Positions 5,827-42,984 of a DNA stretch of 64,000 nt are shown piece by piece (the first letter of the stretch is position 1; each line of letters begins with the position of its first letter). The position numbers were made by a program, and so were the translations under genes. Origin of the DNA: Arcobacter sp. CECT 8985 (lineage in GTDB: Bacteria; Campylobacterota; Campylobacteria; Campylobacterales; Arcobacteraceae); the NCBI RefSeq assembly GCF_004116495.1, contig NZ_PDKC01000010.1, positions 1 through 64,000 on the forward strand, given 5' to 3'. The notes beneath the pieces were generated by a model. That model searched no databases and was not told where the DNA came from. It saw only the letters and a list, made by a program, of their open reading frames with translations.

Positions 5827-6864
5827 TTAAACTTCCTCTATTGTAATTTTGTATGTTTTGTTTTCATCTAGTTTTTCATGTATTTCTTCCCAAGGATCAC
5901 CAATCCATTCAAAACCTTTTGCACTCCATTTGCTTGGTGTGAAATTAAACTTTTCTTTAAATTTTTCTTTCCCTGGGGAAATTTCTTTGTTTTCATTTTC
6001 TTTTTTCTTTGGTGATAAAAGTGCGTCAAAATAAACATTAAATGTAAAACCACTATCTTTTGCTTGATCAGGATATTTTTTATAAGCTTTTGATAAAGCA
6101 CTATTCTCATTTGGTGCTTTGATAATTTCATCTGCAAAAATATTTCTATCTTTATCACGAATTTGAAGTAAATAACTATTGATAACTACTTCATCACATT
6201 GTTCATTTTTCTCTTTCACACCTGGTTTAAAATCTTTTATATCATCCCTGGTGATCTCACCAGCAAGATATTTTTCATATACTTCTTTTTGTACATCTGT
6301 ATCTTTTACCCTGGCGATCTCTTCCAGCACTGAAAGTGGAAGATCATTTTCATTTTCTTCAATATCTTTGATAATTTGACTATCTAGTTTTAAGCAGCCA
6401 AAGGCTTTTGATATATAAGATGGTGATTTACCAATTGCTTTTGCTAGATCTGCTTTCTTTTTATATTGGCCACTGTTCCAAAGTATGCTGATATATTTGG
6501 CAACTTCAAGATCTGTTAGATCTGATCTTTGAATATTTTCGATTAATGAGAGTTCTTGAACTTTGTTGCCATCAGCTTGAATAATATGTGCTTTGATAGT
6601 TCGAGATCCAAGGTGCTTTGTAGCCCTATATCTTCTTTCACCCGATATGATCATAAACATACCAGCACCATCACTTACCACTGCGATTGGTTGGATCAGT
6701 CCATGTTCTTTGATTGAAGCTGCTAGATCCTCAATCTCTTCAAAAGATTTTCTAGGCTGATTTGGGTTTGCATAAACCTTATCAATATCAAGTTCCTGGA
6801 ATGGAGTTACTCCACTGGTTTTAACTTTGCCTTTAGTGACTTTACCAATTGCTTCTAAGTTCAT
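5827..6864 (-). CDS. parB: ParB/RepB/Spo0J-family partition protein
   Basis: A 345-residue ParB. The CTP-binding N-domain is clear: NPNQPRKSFEEIEDLAASIK near 35-55 and the GERRYRA motif near 78. Next comes the family helix-turn-helix region (about 115-185: ENIQRSDLTDLEVA, KKADLAKAIGKSPSYISKAF). The C-terminal 150 residues are not typical. ParB would load on a centromere (parS) and be moved by ParA, stabilising an extrachromosomal prophage. I chose the ATG at 6862-6864, with AGGA 8 bases upstream; a GTG lies one codon earlier. It overlaps parA by 23 bases. Three TTTCCCACGGGAAA near-palindromes in the prophage are candidate targets. Confidence 0.92.
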   Translation of the reverse strand: MNLEAIGKVTKGKVKTSGVTPFQELDIDKVYANPNQPRKSFEEIEDLAASIKEHGLIQPIAVVSDGAGMFMIISGERRYRATKHLGSRTIKAHIIQADGNKVQELSLIENIQRSDLTDLEVAKYISILWNSGQYKKKADLAKAIGKSPSYISKAFGCLKLDSQIIKDIEENENDLPLSVLEEIARVKDTDVQKEVYEKYLAGEITRDDIKDFKPGVKEKNEQCDEVVINSYLLQIRDKDRNIFADEIIKAPNENSALSKAYKKYPDQAKDSGFTFNVYFDALLSPKKKENENKEISPGKEKFKEKFNFTPSKWSAKGFEWIGDPWEEIHEKLDENKTYKITIEEV

Positions 6865-7462
6865 CACACAATCCTTTTATTTCAGCCTTTGCAACTTCAT
6901 TTTTAGTATCAAAGATAGATTTTCCAACACCAAGTGTTTCTTTATAGATCTTTCTGTTTCTTATGATTGAGTTTAGAAGGCTTATATTCTCACTTTCACC
7001 AATTGCCCTGGTGATAACATCAAAATCTTTTGTAAGTGGGTGTATGTTGTTTAAAACTACATTTACAAATGGGTTTCCAATCTCTTCTAGGATCGCTTCA
7101 AAAGTTTTAAAACCTAAAACTTCAGTAAGTGAATTTGAAATTGGAACAATGATCTGATCACTCCAAGATATTGCAGTTCTGTTAATATCATTATCAAAAC
7201 CACCAACATCAACAATAAGTATTTCATCATTATTGTAAGTTTCAAATGTGCTGATAAGTTCAGCAGCAGTTTCACATTGGATCACTTCTTTTTTGTCAAG
7301 TCCACTTGCATATCTAATGTCATTTATAAAAAAGATAGTTTGCTGGAAATCTAAATCAATGATCTTAACCTTTTGGCCATCATTGATAAAACAGTTTGCT
7401 ATGTTCCAGGCTAGTGTGGATTTACCAACACCACCTTTTGTGTGTGCAACAGTTAGGATCAT
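6842..7462 (-). CDS. parA: ParA-family partition ATPase
   Basis: A deviant Walker ATPase: MILTVAHTKGGVGKSTLAWN carries the KGGVGKST loop, IIDLDFQQ the A' box and ILIVDVGG the Walker B. From the ATG at 7460-7462 it has 206 residues, which fits small type Ib ParA proteins without an N-terminal HTH. A longer frame to 7567 adds 35 unrelated residues and passes over a better short coding frame (7459-7530), so I use the shorter start, preceded by GGGGGAA. It pairs with parB by overlap. The operon is preceded by two repressor operators (7713-7764), so lysogenic control by the repressor is likely. Confidence 0.9.
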   Translation of the reverse strand: MILTVAHTKGGVGKSTLAWNIANCFINDGQKVKIIDLDFQQTIFFINDIRYASGLDKKEVIQCETAAELISTFETYNNDEILIVDVGGFDNDINRTAISWSDQIIVPISNSLTEVLGFKTFEAILEEIGNPFVNVVLNNIHPLTKDFDVITRAIGESENISLLNSIIRNRKIYKETLGVGKSIFDTKNEVAKAEIKGLCDELRSNW

Positions 7463-7530
7463 AATACATATTCCCCCATCTTCAAAATCATTTGATCTAT
7501 ACAGATCAGTAATTCTTCTAGTTTTTTCAT
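7459..7530 (-). CDS. Possible 23-residue leader peptide before parA
   Basis: ATG at 7528-7530 follows AAAAGGAACTGAAG, the best ribosome site in the area. The peptide MKKLEELLICIDQMILKMGE plus YVL is an amphipathic helix, and its stop overlaps the parA start as ATGA. It could be a small protein or a translational coupler for parA. Length alone makes the call uncertain. Confidence 0.45.
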   Translation of the reverse strand: MKKLEELLICIDQMILKMGEYVL

Positions 7531-7559
7531 CTTCAGTTCCTTTTATGAATTTATATCCA

Positions 7560-7637
7560 TATACCAACCACCAAGTATTTCTTTTTACTCCTGATTTAAT
7601 TCTCTAAAAATATGTGTGCTAATAGGTGGCTGGTATA
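7560..7637. repeat. Inverted repeat in the parA leader
   Basis: TATACCAACCACC at 7560-7572 faces GGTGGCTGGTATA at 7625-7637, a 13-bp inverted repeat with one mismatch around a 52-base loop. It lies between the repressor operators and the parA genes, so it would be in the leader RNA or serve as a site for ParA/ParB autoregulation. Confidence 0.4.
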
Positions 7638-11157: not shown

Positions 11158-11203
11158 CCCGTGGGGTATGTAGTCAAGCGACCAAACCGTCTACATATCC
11201 CAC
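11158..11203. other. Hairpin with degenerate CCCGTGGG site upstream of the replication gene
   Basis: GTGGGGTATGTAG (11161-11173) pairs with CTACATATCCCAC (11191-11203), 13 bp with one G-T position, around a 17-base loop (TCAAGCGACCAAACCGT). No T tract follows, so it is not a standard terminator. Its base includes CCCGTGGG (11158-11165), the reverse complement of the core of the three TTTCCCACGGGAAA sites. Confidence 0.6.
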
Positions 11204-11218
11204 ACCAACAACACTAAT

Positions 11219-11304
11219 CAGGAACTTCATAGTGAAGTTAGTTGTAATTTTATCAGTTCCTTTATTGCAACTGGCTTTAGCTGATTTCACTATGCAGTTC
11301 CTGG
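11219..11304. other. Second inverted repeat, leader of the replication gene
   Basis: CAGGAACTTCATAGTGAA (11220-11237 region) faces TTCACTATGCAGTTCCTG (11286-11303), an 18-bp inverted repeat with one mismatch; inner AGTTG/CAACT segments extend the pairing. The right arm ends just before the AAAGGAAC ribosome site of the replication gene, so the structure could control its translation or form part of the origin. Confidence 0.6.
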
Positions 11305-11322: not shown

Positions 11323-12162
11323 TTGAAACATATACTAAAACAACTTAATCAAAAACCAATAGCTTATTATCCAGTTTATCGTGAAATTACTGGATCAACT
11401 ACTGGTGGAATATTACTATCACAACTTATGTACTGGTTCAGCAAAAAAGATAAGATTTTTAAGACTGATAAAGAGATTATGGAAGAAACTTTTTTGACTA
11501 GAAAAGAGTTAGAAAATGCAAAAAAACTTATAAAAAAACTTGATTTTATAACAGTTTCAAGAGAGGGATTACCAGCTAAAACATACTATGAAATTGATTG
11601 GAATGAGATGTTATCAAGTTTACACCATTGGGGGAAACTAGAAAAACCAAAAGGTGAAAACACTACTCCCCCAAAGGTGAAAACACTACTCCCCCAAACG
11701 GGTAAACATTCTATATATACAGAGAATACAACAGAGAATACAACAGAGAGTATAACTCCCTCTTCAATAATTTCTTTTTATAAATCTAATATTTCAAGTA
11801 AAAATCAAGACATTCAAGAGCCATCAAGTTTTAATCAAATTTCACTTAGAAAAGATGATTTTGAAAAAATTATGAAAGGTCTTGAAAATTATGCAAAATA
11901 TATTTCATCTACTGGTAGGAAACCTGAACAACTTTTCTTTTTTATCAGAAATAGAATTTATCTTGATTACCAAGAAGAACAAGTTGCAGTAAAAGGAAAA
12001 AATGAAGCAATCGTACCAGCTGATCTTGTAGGTAAAAGATTTTGCATTGATGGTGAAGATATTGAATTTCAAGAAGATGGATATTTGAAGATCGCTAAAG
12101 ATTGGAAAGTAACAAATGCAGAAAATGTACAGCAATTAGTAAATTTAGTAAGGGGTGCATAA
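11323..12162 (+). CDS. Phage replication initiator (lambda O-like)
   Basis: A 279-residue protein starting at TTG behind AAGGAAC. The N-terminal 100 residues are a winged-helix domain (TGGILLSQLMYWF, FLTRKELENAKKLIKKL) found in phage replication proteins. A low-complexity linker (about 105-145) is encoded by tandem DNA repeats, and the C-domain (DDFEKIMKGLENYAKYISST...) may bind a helicase or loader. The repeats within the gene match the lambda O and origin arrangement. It would bind them and open the origin. The family is inferred from domain form and position. Confidence 0.7.
   Translation: MKHILKQLNQKPIAYYPVYREITGSTTGGILLSQLMYWFSKKDKIFKTDKEIMEETFLTRKELENAKKLIKKLDFITVSREGLPAKTYYEIDWNEMLSSLHHWGKLEKPKGENTTPPKVKTLLPQTGKHSIYTENTTENTTESITPSSIISFYKSNISSKNQDIQEPSSFNQISLRKDDFEKIMKGLENYAKYISSTGRKPEQLFFFIRNRIYLDYQEEQVAVKGKNEAIVPADLVGKRFCIDGEDIEFQEDGYLKIAKDWKVTNAENVQQLVNLVRGA
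11650..11695. repeat. Two tandem 23-bp iterons, candidate origin
   Basis: Bases 11650-11672 and 11673-11695 are identical 23-mers (AAAGGTGAAAACAC then TACTCCCCC). Since 23 is not a multiple of three, they are translated in two different frames (KGENTTPP and KVKTLLPQ), so identity is kept at DNA level. A partial copy in inverted form (TTGGGGGA) lies at about 11629-11636. Confidence 0.75.
11719..11754. repeat. Three tandem 12-bp repeats
   Basis: ACAGAGAATACA occurs twice and then once as ACAGAGAGTATA. They are in frame and encode a repeated Thr-Glu-Asn-Thr unit. They lie next to the 23-bp repeats and may add to the origin as an AT-rich or binding region. Confidence 0.65.
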
Positions 12163-12697: not shown

Positions 12698-13783
12698 ATG
12701 ATAGGTTCAAAAAGATATGGATCGAAAGTACAACTAAACTACCTAAAAGGTGGTGATATTTCTTATTTTATAGTTTATAAATCAGGTAAAAAAACTATTT
12801 ACAAAAAAGTAGGTAGGAAATCAGAGGGAATAAATGAAAAAAAAGCTATTGAACTTAGAAACCAAATACTTTCAGAGTTAAGACATGGGATTGATTTATC
12901 ACAAAAGAGCATGAAAACTCTTACTCTGGATAGATTAGCAGAACTATATTTTGCAAGTATTGCTGCACATTGCAAAAGCCATGATAAATACAAACAAGAA
13001 TATGAAAGACACATCAAACCAGCATTTGGTGATATACCAATTGCAATGCTGGATGATATTTTGATTCAGGAATTTCAAGCAATTAAACTTTCTGATAAAA
13101 AAAGCAAAGGCAGTATAAATCAATATATCAAAGGCCTTAAAAGAATACTTAACTATGCGATAAGAAAATCAATAATTTCACACAGTCCATTCAAAGAAAT
13201 AAGAATGTTCCAGGTGGATAATTCAAGACTTAGATATTTGAGTTTGAAAGAAGTGCAACTGCTTCAAGAAGAAGTTCAAGATCATCTTCTTTTGAAGTTG
13301 GTGGTGAAGATCTCATTAAGCACTGGTGCAAGAATTAACAGTGTGCTGGGTATTCAAAAAAAGCATATTGATCAAGAAAATAAAACAGTGCAGCTATATG
13401 ATCATAAAAGAAAATGTTGGTATGTGGGATATTTGGATCAAGAAACATTTCACCTGGTGTGTGATCATATCCAGGAGTTTGGGATCAATGATCATGTAGT
13501 TTCAACAGATGGGAAGAAAACAAAATATGCAGATGTTTATAAGCTGCTAAGACTGATCTTTGATGAAAGATTTAACCAGGGATTAGACAAAAAAGACAGA
13601 GCAAACAGAGTTGTGATCCATACACTAAGACACACTTTTGCTTCACACTTGGCAATAGCTGGTGTGAGTATTCAAAAGATCCAAAAGTTGATGAACCACA
13701 AAGATATTAAACAAACAATGAAATATGCAAAGCTTTCACCTGATAGTGGAAGAAATGCAGTTGAAGAACTTTACAAAGGATAA
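12698..13783 (+). CDS. Second tyrosine-type integrase
   Basis: A 361-residue recombinase with a full catalytic set: Arg in STGARINSV, His308-x2-Arg311 in VVIHTLRHTF, His334 in MNHKD and Tyr343 in KYAKLSP. The C-terminal 60 residues are very close to those of the left-end integrase (1258-2397); the N-terminal halves are much less similar. It lies between the replication and head genes, in the same direction as both, not at a prophage end. It could resolve dimers of the plasmid form, serve another att site, or be a remnant of an older element. No missing residue suggests inactivity. Confidence 0.9.
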   Translation: MIGSKRYGSKVQLNYLKGGDISYFIVYKSGKKTIYKKVGRKSEGINEKKAIELRNQILSELRHGIDLSQKSMKTLTLDRLAELYFASIAAHCKSHDKYKQEYERHIKPAFGDIPIAMLDDILIQEFQAIKLSDKKSKGSINQYIKGLKRILNYAIRKSIISHSPFKEIRMFQVDNSRLRYLSLKEVQLLQEEVQDHLLLKLVVKISLSTGARINSVLGIQKKHIDQENKTVQLYDHKRKCWYVGYLDQETFHLVCDHIQEFGINDHVVSTDGKKTKYADVYKLLRLIFDERFNQGLDKKDRANRVVIHTLRHTFASHLAIAGVSIQKIQKLMNHKDIKQTMKYAKLSPDSGRNAVEELYKG

Positions 13784-38987: not shown

Positions 38988-39551
38988 ATGATTGTTGGCA
39001 TTGAAGGAAAGATTGAAAAAAAAGAACCGACATTATTACATATAAATGTAAATGGTCTTATATACGAAGTATTCGTTTCTGTTAATTGTAGTGCAAAAAT
39101 TACAACAAATGTAGTCAAACTTTTTACTACTTATATTATCAGAGAAGATGCACAAACTTTATATGGGTTTTTAGACATAAATGAAAAGAAATTATTTGAT
39201 ACAGTAATAAAAATAAATGGTGTCGGACCTAAAGTTGCCCTGGCAATTTGTTCGACTTTTACTCCAGGGTCTTTCTCTCAAATAGTAAGTGCAAATGATG
39301 TATCAATGCTAAAAAGAGTTCCTGGAATTGGTCCAAAAGGAGCAAGTAGAATTTTGGTTGAACTATCTGGCTTTGTTGTTGATAGTGAAGATCCTGATGA
39401 AAATAGCAATGCTACAAGTACACTTGAAGCATCTTTAGCATTAGAATCACTTGGATTCAAAAAAGATATGGTTGCAAAAATTCTTAAAACGTGTAGTGCT
39501 ACAAATACAAGTGATTTAGTAAAAGAAGCACTAAAAAAATTACAAAAATAG
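38988..39551 (+). CDS. ruvA: Holliday junction branch migration protein RuvA
   Basis: A 187-residue RuvA. Domain I is an OB fold ([20 protein letters not shown]), domain II has two helix-hairpin-helix motifs ([16 protein letters not shown] and [16 protein letters not shown]), and domain III ([20 protein letters not shown]) contacts RuvB. It holds the four-way junction. It starts an operon with ddl, a hydrolase and murF. Confidence 0.95.
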
Positions 39552-42765: not shown

Positions 42766-42984
42766 AAAACAACTCGTTGTTTTCTTTAGAGTTTGCTACT
42801 TTAAGGATTTTTTATAAATCCTGCTAAAAGTAGATAATAAAATAAAGGTCCCTTCAAAACTGGGACAGTTTTAAATAAAAACAACTCGTTGTTTTCTTTA
42901 GAGTTTGCTACTTTAAGGATTTTTTATAAATCCTGCTAAAAGTAGATAATAAAATAAAGGTCCCTTCAAAACTGGGACAGTTTT
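42766..42984. repeat. 107-bp tandem duplication with three hairpins
   Basis: Bases 42766-42872 and 42878-42984 are identical over 107 bp, separated by AAATA. Each unit holds a palindrome (AAACAACTCGTTGTTT), a nested stem (CTACTTT...AAAGTAG outside, AGGATTT...AAATCCT inside) and a terminator-like hairpin (GTCCCTTCAAAACTGGGAC followed by T residues). No frame is open. They may be two small RNA genes, a REP-like element, or a duplicated terminator region between murF and the HIT gene. Confidence 0.8.

Follow-up and report, generated by a model that had tools for sequence, protein, structure and literature searches.

The locus analysed here raises the question of why a phage-type replication initiator gene carries short tandem repeats in the middle of its coding sequence, and whether these repeats are maintained as protein or as DNA. 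The original prediction, made for the 64-kb stretch of DNA that we refer to as the window, was that they are iterons kept at the DNA level and arranged as in the O gene of phage lambda. Our analysis leads us to regard the locus as very probably an O-type intragenic origin, in which the iterons would be bound by the winged helix-turn-helix (wHTH) domain of the initiator itself and an adjacent array of short repeats would act as the unwinding element, a reading drawn from sequence comparisons. The features concerned are the following.

11323..12162, + strand: O-like replication initiator gene with a TTG start, encoding 279 aa; PHROG match
11323..11601, + strand: N-terminal wHTH domain, residues 1-93; from AlphaFold2, wHTH fold matches and covariation with the iteron arms
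11624..11638, + strand: iteron 1, degenerate (ACCATTGGGGGAAAC); exact 23-bp register
11647..11661, + strand: iteron 2 (CCAAAAGGTGAAAAC); repeat detection and 23-bp register
11650..11695, + strand: perfect 2 x 23-bp tandem repeat; detected by TRF and named in the original prediction
11670..11684, + strand: iteron 3 (CCCAAAGGTGAAAAC); repeat detection and 23-bp register
11693..11707, + strand: iteron 4, degenerate (CCCAAACGGGTAAAC); exact 23-bp register
11719..11753 (to 11754 when taken as 12-bp repeats), + strand: three ACAGAGANTAC copies, candidate unwinding element; detected by TRF and kept in relatives
11749..12159, + strand: exchangeable C-terminal domain, residues 143-279; common to loci L014, L026 and L028
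12162..12569, + strand: 135-aa gene, candidate loader or partner; travels together with the C-terminal domain

The initiator gene is preceded by CI-, Cro- and CII-like genes and followed by an integrase gene, which is the layout of a lambdoid early region. Its product matches phrog_9773 (E 2.7e-18), phrog_678 (E 7.1e-6) and also phrog_6493, which are PHROGs of the O-like and DnaD-like types, and membership of the O-like group is given by the first two. No Pfam family was matched at E values up to 0.1; this includes the lambda O family proper (PF04492, Phage_rep_O), which lambda O itself matches at 5.7e-36, and the RepA_N domain (PF06970). Nor was a C-terminal domain of the DnaD or DnaB_2 type found by Pfam, and the match to phrog_6493 covers residues 8-165 only. 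AlphaFold2 confidently predicts a wHTH in residues 1-100, with a pLDDT of about 90 over residues 20-80 and a predicted recognition helix at residues 60-71, while the linker encoded by the repeat DNA (residues 106-146) is of low confidence and the C-terminal domain is weakly modelled. A search of PDB sequences with a profile of the N-terminal domain gave no match. The fold matches of this domain, which include the RepA_N N-domain structures 4pt7 and 5kbj, are to generic wHTH folds (Z about 7) and were not used to assign a family. Among the related genes, two loci (L032:2477-2776 and L027:1477-1776), which may represent one genome, contain an O-like gene with TGA at codon 93, where Trp is otherwise invariant (YEID*QKYEK); similarity runs on past this nonsense mutation.

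Inside the coding sequence, between the DNA-binding and C-terminal domains, the window contains four palindromic iterons in direct orientation that follow one another at exact 23-bp steps (11624, 11647, 11670 and 11693), in a register set from that of the relatives. As predicted, positions 11650-11672 and 11673-11695 are identical 23-mers (both AAAGGTGAAAACACTACTCCCCC) that are out of frame with each other, being read in codon phases 0 and 2 as the peptides KGENTTPP and KVKTLLPQ; TRF reports a period of 23 with 100% match over 11650-11698. The three 12-bp repeats placed at 11719-11754 are also present, two of them perfect and one imperfect. What had been taken for an inverted partial copy at 11618-11635 is better regarded as one more direct iteron (iteron 1), degenerate in sequence, to which the palindromic nature of the iteron core gives the look of an inverted copy. 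When the window was scanned for repetition at lags of 15-30 bp, the iteron site ranked top among 1639 tiles of 117 nt, with a score of 29 and the best unrelated tile scoring 17.5, and this score was reached in none of 200 synonymous recodings of the linker peptide (mean 7.6 vs 29). No iteron sequence was found elsewhere in the 64-kb window at up to three mismatches, the chance expectation being 0. A second DNA match in the host genome (G000:C77) turned out to be a weak similarity within an unrelated chromosomal ORF and was rejected.

To see how the repeats fare when the protein is followed across phages, we used 45 relatives of the initiator that were gathered by protein similarity alone. The best linker repeat lag is 23 bp in 37 of them, 24 bp in five, 22 bp in two and 26 bp in one, and in 44 of the 45 the repetition exceeds that of synonymous recodings of the same peptide (200 recodings per relative, p <=0.05), which bears out the predicted upkeep of the iterons at the DNA level. 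The original prediction had named as one refutation a family in which the protein sequence is kept and the DNA repeats are lost. The relatives show the opposite: the linker peptide varies among them, as does the sequence of the repeat itself, yet a palindromic repeat with a period of about 23 bp is retained. Thus, the iterons are phage-specific (GCCAAAAGGGCGAAACTGGATAA in L015, GACGAATCGTCCAAACTGT in L016 and GTGGAATTCACCAAACTTG in L021), and what those of different phages have in common is an 11-bp palindromic core with an AAC tail. The arms of the core covary, three pairs of positions being complementary at frequencies of 0.51, 0.45 and 0.71 vs nulls of 0.32, 0.24 and 0.34, which exceeds all 1000 shuffles in a permutation that corrects partly for the relatedness of the loci. 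A comparison at close range is offered by L004, whose gene is 97% identical to that of the window: all five differences in the iteron zone change the protein, and one iteron position is changed from A to G in both iterons 2 and 3, resulting in an E-to-G and a K-to-E replacement.

The arms also vary together with the protein. In a comparison of 26 relatives, corrected linearly for overall N-domain distance and including five loci with hand-picked iterons, the N-domain columns most closely tied to the iteron arms are 61 (partial r 0.67), 60 (0.45), 65 (0.36), 69 (0.24) and 64 (0.18). Residues 60, 61, 64 and 65 lie on one face where the predicted recognition helix begins, and particular helices go with particular arms: EKELRNAK with GCC, E[KR]ELKTAK with GAC, and NELR[GST]AK with GTG or GTA. 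This covariation supports, and does not prove, the view that the initiator binds the iterons in its own gene, and the correlation amounts to a testable specificity code for initiators of this type.

Directly 3' of the iterons lies the ACAGAGANTAC array, with a repeat spacing of 10-13 bp, mostly 12. Judged from its distribution, it is an element separate from the iterons and far more widely shared. At least one ACAGAGANTAC copy with no more than one mismatch is found in 37 of the 45 relatives, and several others carry close variants. When 2.9 million viral contigs were scanned at the DNA level only, using two patterns with 20 fixed bases each, at least 120 stretches with a 12-bp lag and 92 with an 11-bp lag were obtained, vs 2 matches for a reversed control pattern with identical composition. 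We fetched 200 loci, and in 196 of them the array is inside an O/DnaD-like initiator ORF, as assigned by phmmer (E <1e-5) to 16 such initiators. As for the other four, L258 is a microsatellite and was rejected as a false positive; by eye, L130 resembles a frameshifted initiator fragment, L152 another initiator, and L244 a wrongly picked frame. BLAST located the array in 109 phage records, in 61 plasmids (the chimeric plasmid pPR9 is not among them) and in 2357 of 5426 E. coli genomes, and among the matches listed most sites are annotated as a replication-initiation, DnaD-like or hypothetical protein. The phages include those of Acinetobacter, Staphylococcus, Klebsiella, Vibrio, Pseudomonas, Burkholderia, Bacillus, Geobacillus, Lactobacillus, Synechococcus and others, and over all searches the array recurs in phages of Proteobacteria, Firmicutes, Cyanobacteria and Campylobacterota. 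The array was not found in the N-domain relatives from Protochlamydia, Megaera and Deinococcus plasmids; since array-free relatives exist, the N-domain family as a whole does not require it, and we rejected the idea that it is universal there. Lone ACAGAGANTAC copies with one mismatch are unremarkable in the 64-kb window (6 found vs 4 expected), and it is only the tandem array beside the iterons that is informative.

Two observations on individual records arose from these searches. A CRISPR spacer (ACTCGTCTATATATACAGAGATTACTACAGAGAT; L303, approximately 1985-2020, Picosynechococcus PCC 7002 plasmid pAQ4) matches the origin array; its CRISPR array lies near type I-D cas1d/cas2, and the spacer may target such phage origins. 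The record OR842880.1 (Xanthomonas phage SU1, L302) has a replication gene and origin very similar to those of Staphylococcus phage 37 (L297), and its host label seems doubtful.

Codon choice and reading frame speak to the level at which the array is maintained. Within the T[EK]xT units that it encodes, Glu is specified by GAG in 43 cases and by GAA in 1, vs 379 and 639 elsewhere in the same genes, and Lys by AAG in 15 cases and by AAA in none, vs 372 and 980 elsewhere. Arrays with an 11-bp lag begin in all three codon phases (51, 29 and 3 cases) and encode such different peptides as TENTYREYTEN (L069) and TETTQRLPET (L074). On these data the array is kept as DNA across reading frames. The array of the window is in frame throughout, so the case for DNA-level selection there is built on the relatives and on codon choice. 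In GC-rich loci the array is the GC minimum (0.41 vs 0.51 upstream and 0.59 downstream). In part of the relatives the array is closely followed on its 3' side by a hairpin (mean folding energy -5.3 vs -3.35 for shuffled sequences), which is GC-rich in, for example, L075, L094, L297, L300 and L305, and by eye lambda too has a dyad at this place. The window has no such hairpin, and we therefore left it out of our explanation.

The distribution of the two protein domains indicates that the locus is modular. L014, L026 and L028 share the C-terminal domain of the window and combine it with other N-terminal domains and with different intragenic repeats of their own, without the array. The 135-aa gene, which overlaps the stop codon of the initiator gene, follows this C-terminal domain also in L014 and L026. 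Since the C-terminal domain is shared with different N-terminal domains and repeats, the N-terminal domain, iterons and array appear to constitute one exchangeable unit, and the C-terminal domain with the next gene another. We infer that the C-terminal domain recruits the helicase. The gene that follows the initiator in relatives often encodes a DnaB-like helicase, a DnaC-like ATPase or a lambda-P-like protein, and the 135-aa product is a candidate helicase loader; it has no PHROG match and is not recognisable as a loader by sequence.

A transfer of the DNA elements without the protein seems to have taken place in Bacillus. The 8.4-kb mobilizable plasmids pBSG3 and pBamNAU-B3a, together with four further identical records, correspond to their 7.4-kb sisters plus a clean insertion of 170 bp (2419-2588 in pBamNAU-B3a, L296, compared with the sister plasmid L307). 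The insert corresponds, with 76% homology, to an internal part of the O-like gene in phage PM1, comprising the iterons, the array and the stretch that follows; it lacks the wHTH and the rest of the C-terminal domain and lies outside any initiator gene. This suggests that the iterons and the array may be useful as bare DNA. pBSG3 carries its own rep gene as well. The insert could possibly be a captured phage origin that serves phage-driven amplification or transduction, and that a resident or infecting phage amplifies the plasmid is a guess on our part. In any case, the insert is a natural candidate for a minimal origin.

Taken together, an O-type intragenic origin would work as follows. The wHTH domain, probably as a dimer, would use its recognition helix (residues 60, 61, 64 and 65) to bind the palindrome of each iteron, and the assembly of bound initiators would strain the DNA, such that the adjacent AT-richer array would melt and be captured in single-stranded form. 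The host DnaB helicase would then be brought in by the C-terminal domain, perhaps together with the 135-aa product. The N-terminal domain, iterons and array would travel as a module for specificity and opening, and the C-terminal domain and next gene as a second module, with the array beside the junction. That the array is the unwinding element we infer mainly because in L092, a lambda-like relative, a ACAGAGANTAC array occupies the place of the lambda AT-rich tract; L092 shares with lambda the sequence 3' of the AT-rich region, which consists of ATTCGTC and then AGAATTCTGGCGAATCC.

Several other explanations of the repeats have to be weighed against this one. The copies of 23 bp are perfect in the window, as would be expected of a recent and functionless duplication by slippage. 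Such an origin of the repeats is hardly credible, given that most relatives have the same period with different sequences, that the arms covary, and that a random duplication of 23 bp would shift the reading frame. Selection could also act on the linker peptide (TENTTENTTE and the KG.. segments), and it is true that most loci have the array in frame, with 69 of 73 copies in phase 0. We consider this very improbable: the iteron period of 23 is out of frame, linker peptides differ among phages, the repeats are not produced by synonymous recoding, GAG and AAG are near-obligatory only within the units, and out-of-frame copies of the array exist. It is somewhat easier to envisage, although still improbable, that the iterons are an intragenic operator through which the initiator represses or roadblocks its own transcription, the true origin being elsewhere. 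Autoregulation through iterons is common in plasmids, and the two long inverted repeats upstream (11160-11303) are possible other control or origin elements. Against this, the iteron site is 300 bp inside the gene, the iterons and array have moved into plasmids without a promoter or an initiator domain, and the array occupies the place of the lambda unwinding region.

The alternative that deserves most attention concerns the array only, which could be kept for another role at the DNA level, as a priming site for primase, a site for a host factor or a recombination joint between modules. Its position next to the junction where N- and C-terminal domains are exchanged speaks for such a role. Moreover, the GC dip at the array is modest (0.36-0.41), so that ease of melting alone fails to explain why the exact word is retained. 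We nevertheless think such a role unlikely, since the array is placed like the lambda AT-rich unwinding region and always directly 3' of the iterons, and since a recombination role would not account for the array being part of the 170-bp insert of the plasmids. A more specific form of the unwinding reading is that the array is a sequence-specific opening element of O-type phage origins in several phyla, read as DNA by a conserved protein. We put this forward tentatively, as somewhat less likely than not; the reader could be the initiator, through a face that stays constant, or the helicase loader, or else a host protein such as primase. That phages of cyanobacterial as well as Gram-negative and Gram-positive hosts carry a specific 11-mer array at the same place suggests a common reader and makes such phage origins findable from sequence alone.

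Some further observations were made in the window. Two long inverted repeats, at 11160-11210 and 11219-11303 (the latter with 23-nt arms that are 87% complementary), lie after the CII-like region and ahead of the initiator gene; they could form a terminator, specify an antisense or leader RNA, or belong to the origin as a second element. ParA-like and ParB-like genes (5827-7567) belong to the same element as the phage integrase gene (12698-13783), and this element may be a prophage that can persist in plasmid form. A perfect 112-bp tandem duplication is present at 42766-42984 (2.0 copies, 100%). The GC skew changes sign near 10 kb, where gene orientation also flips, so this change is no evidence for an origin and was rejected as such. 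Rfam matches on 9-14 kb were to eukaryotic families only, all of them sub-threshold, and were rejected too.

How does this locus compare with known systems? An intragenic O-type origin is textbook knowledge for lambda, where strand opening is ascribed mainly to the AT-rich tract. Like the window, lambda (NC_001416) has four palindromic iterons in the middle of its initiator gene, beginning at 39034, 39054, 39078 and 39101 and ending at 39118, with an AT-rich region directly 3'. That region opens upon binding of O to the iterons (PMC5043065), and O proteins bind a single strand of it (PMC7466680). The predicted lambda O arrangement holds as to layout, and the protein is O-like by PHROGs, though outside PF04492. 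The position of the array 3' of the last iteron and its composition agree with those of an AT-rich unwinding region, which the array may be. There are also differences: the lambda iteron is an 18-bp palindrome whereas that of the window has an 11-bp core with an AAC tail, the steps are 20, 24 and 23 bp in lambda and exactly 23 bp here, a regular 11-mer array stands in place of the A-rich tract, and no P gene is recognisable next door. Other O/DnaD-like phage initiators (phrog_9773, 6493, 678, 270, 428 and 391) have the same layout of N-terminal domain, linker and C-terminal domain, iterons of their own and the same array, but the type of C-terminal domain that the window has was seen in this analysis only in the Campylobacterota-like loci L004, L005, L014, L026 and L028.

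The RepA_N plasmids pSK41 and pTZ2162 provide a second parallel, with origin boxes centrally in rep and an encoded linker that is dispensable as protein (PMC5703833). In origins of this type, an N-terminal wHTH binds the boxes, which are semi-palindromic direct repeats around an A tract, and the chimeric initiator of pPR9, with a phage-like N-terminal domain and origin, has retained replication (PMC5703833, PMC7145576). The window shares the intragenic origin with these initiators and belongs to a different family, its protein having no Pfam match. Intragenic iteron origins being known from lambda and RepA_N plasmids, the origin of the window would by itself be a further case of an arrangement already described. 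The array as a conserved element, the constraint on its DNA and the wide range over which it occurs are, on the other hand, apparently undescribed in the available literature: the array sequence was not found in an origin context in open-access articles, a search that covered few subscription journals and is no proof of novelty. Its closest counterparts are the DnaA-trio and 13-mer elements of oriC and plasmid origins, short repeats beside initiator boxes at the site of strand opening (PMC10797057). The array resembles them in that short words adjoin initiator boxes and differs in its period of 11-13 and in its word, ACAGAGANTAC, and no DnaA boxes were noticed; by eye it contains no regular series of trinucleotides, and we rejected reading it as a DnaA-trio itself. 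If the array does act as a sequence-specific opening element, it would be a phage counterpart of the DnaA-trio, alongside which interchangeable pairs of iteron and recognition helix are plugged in.
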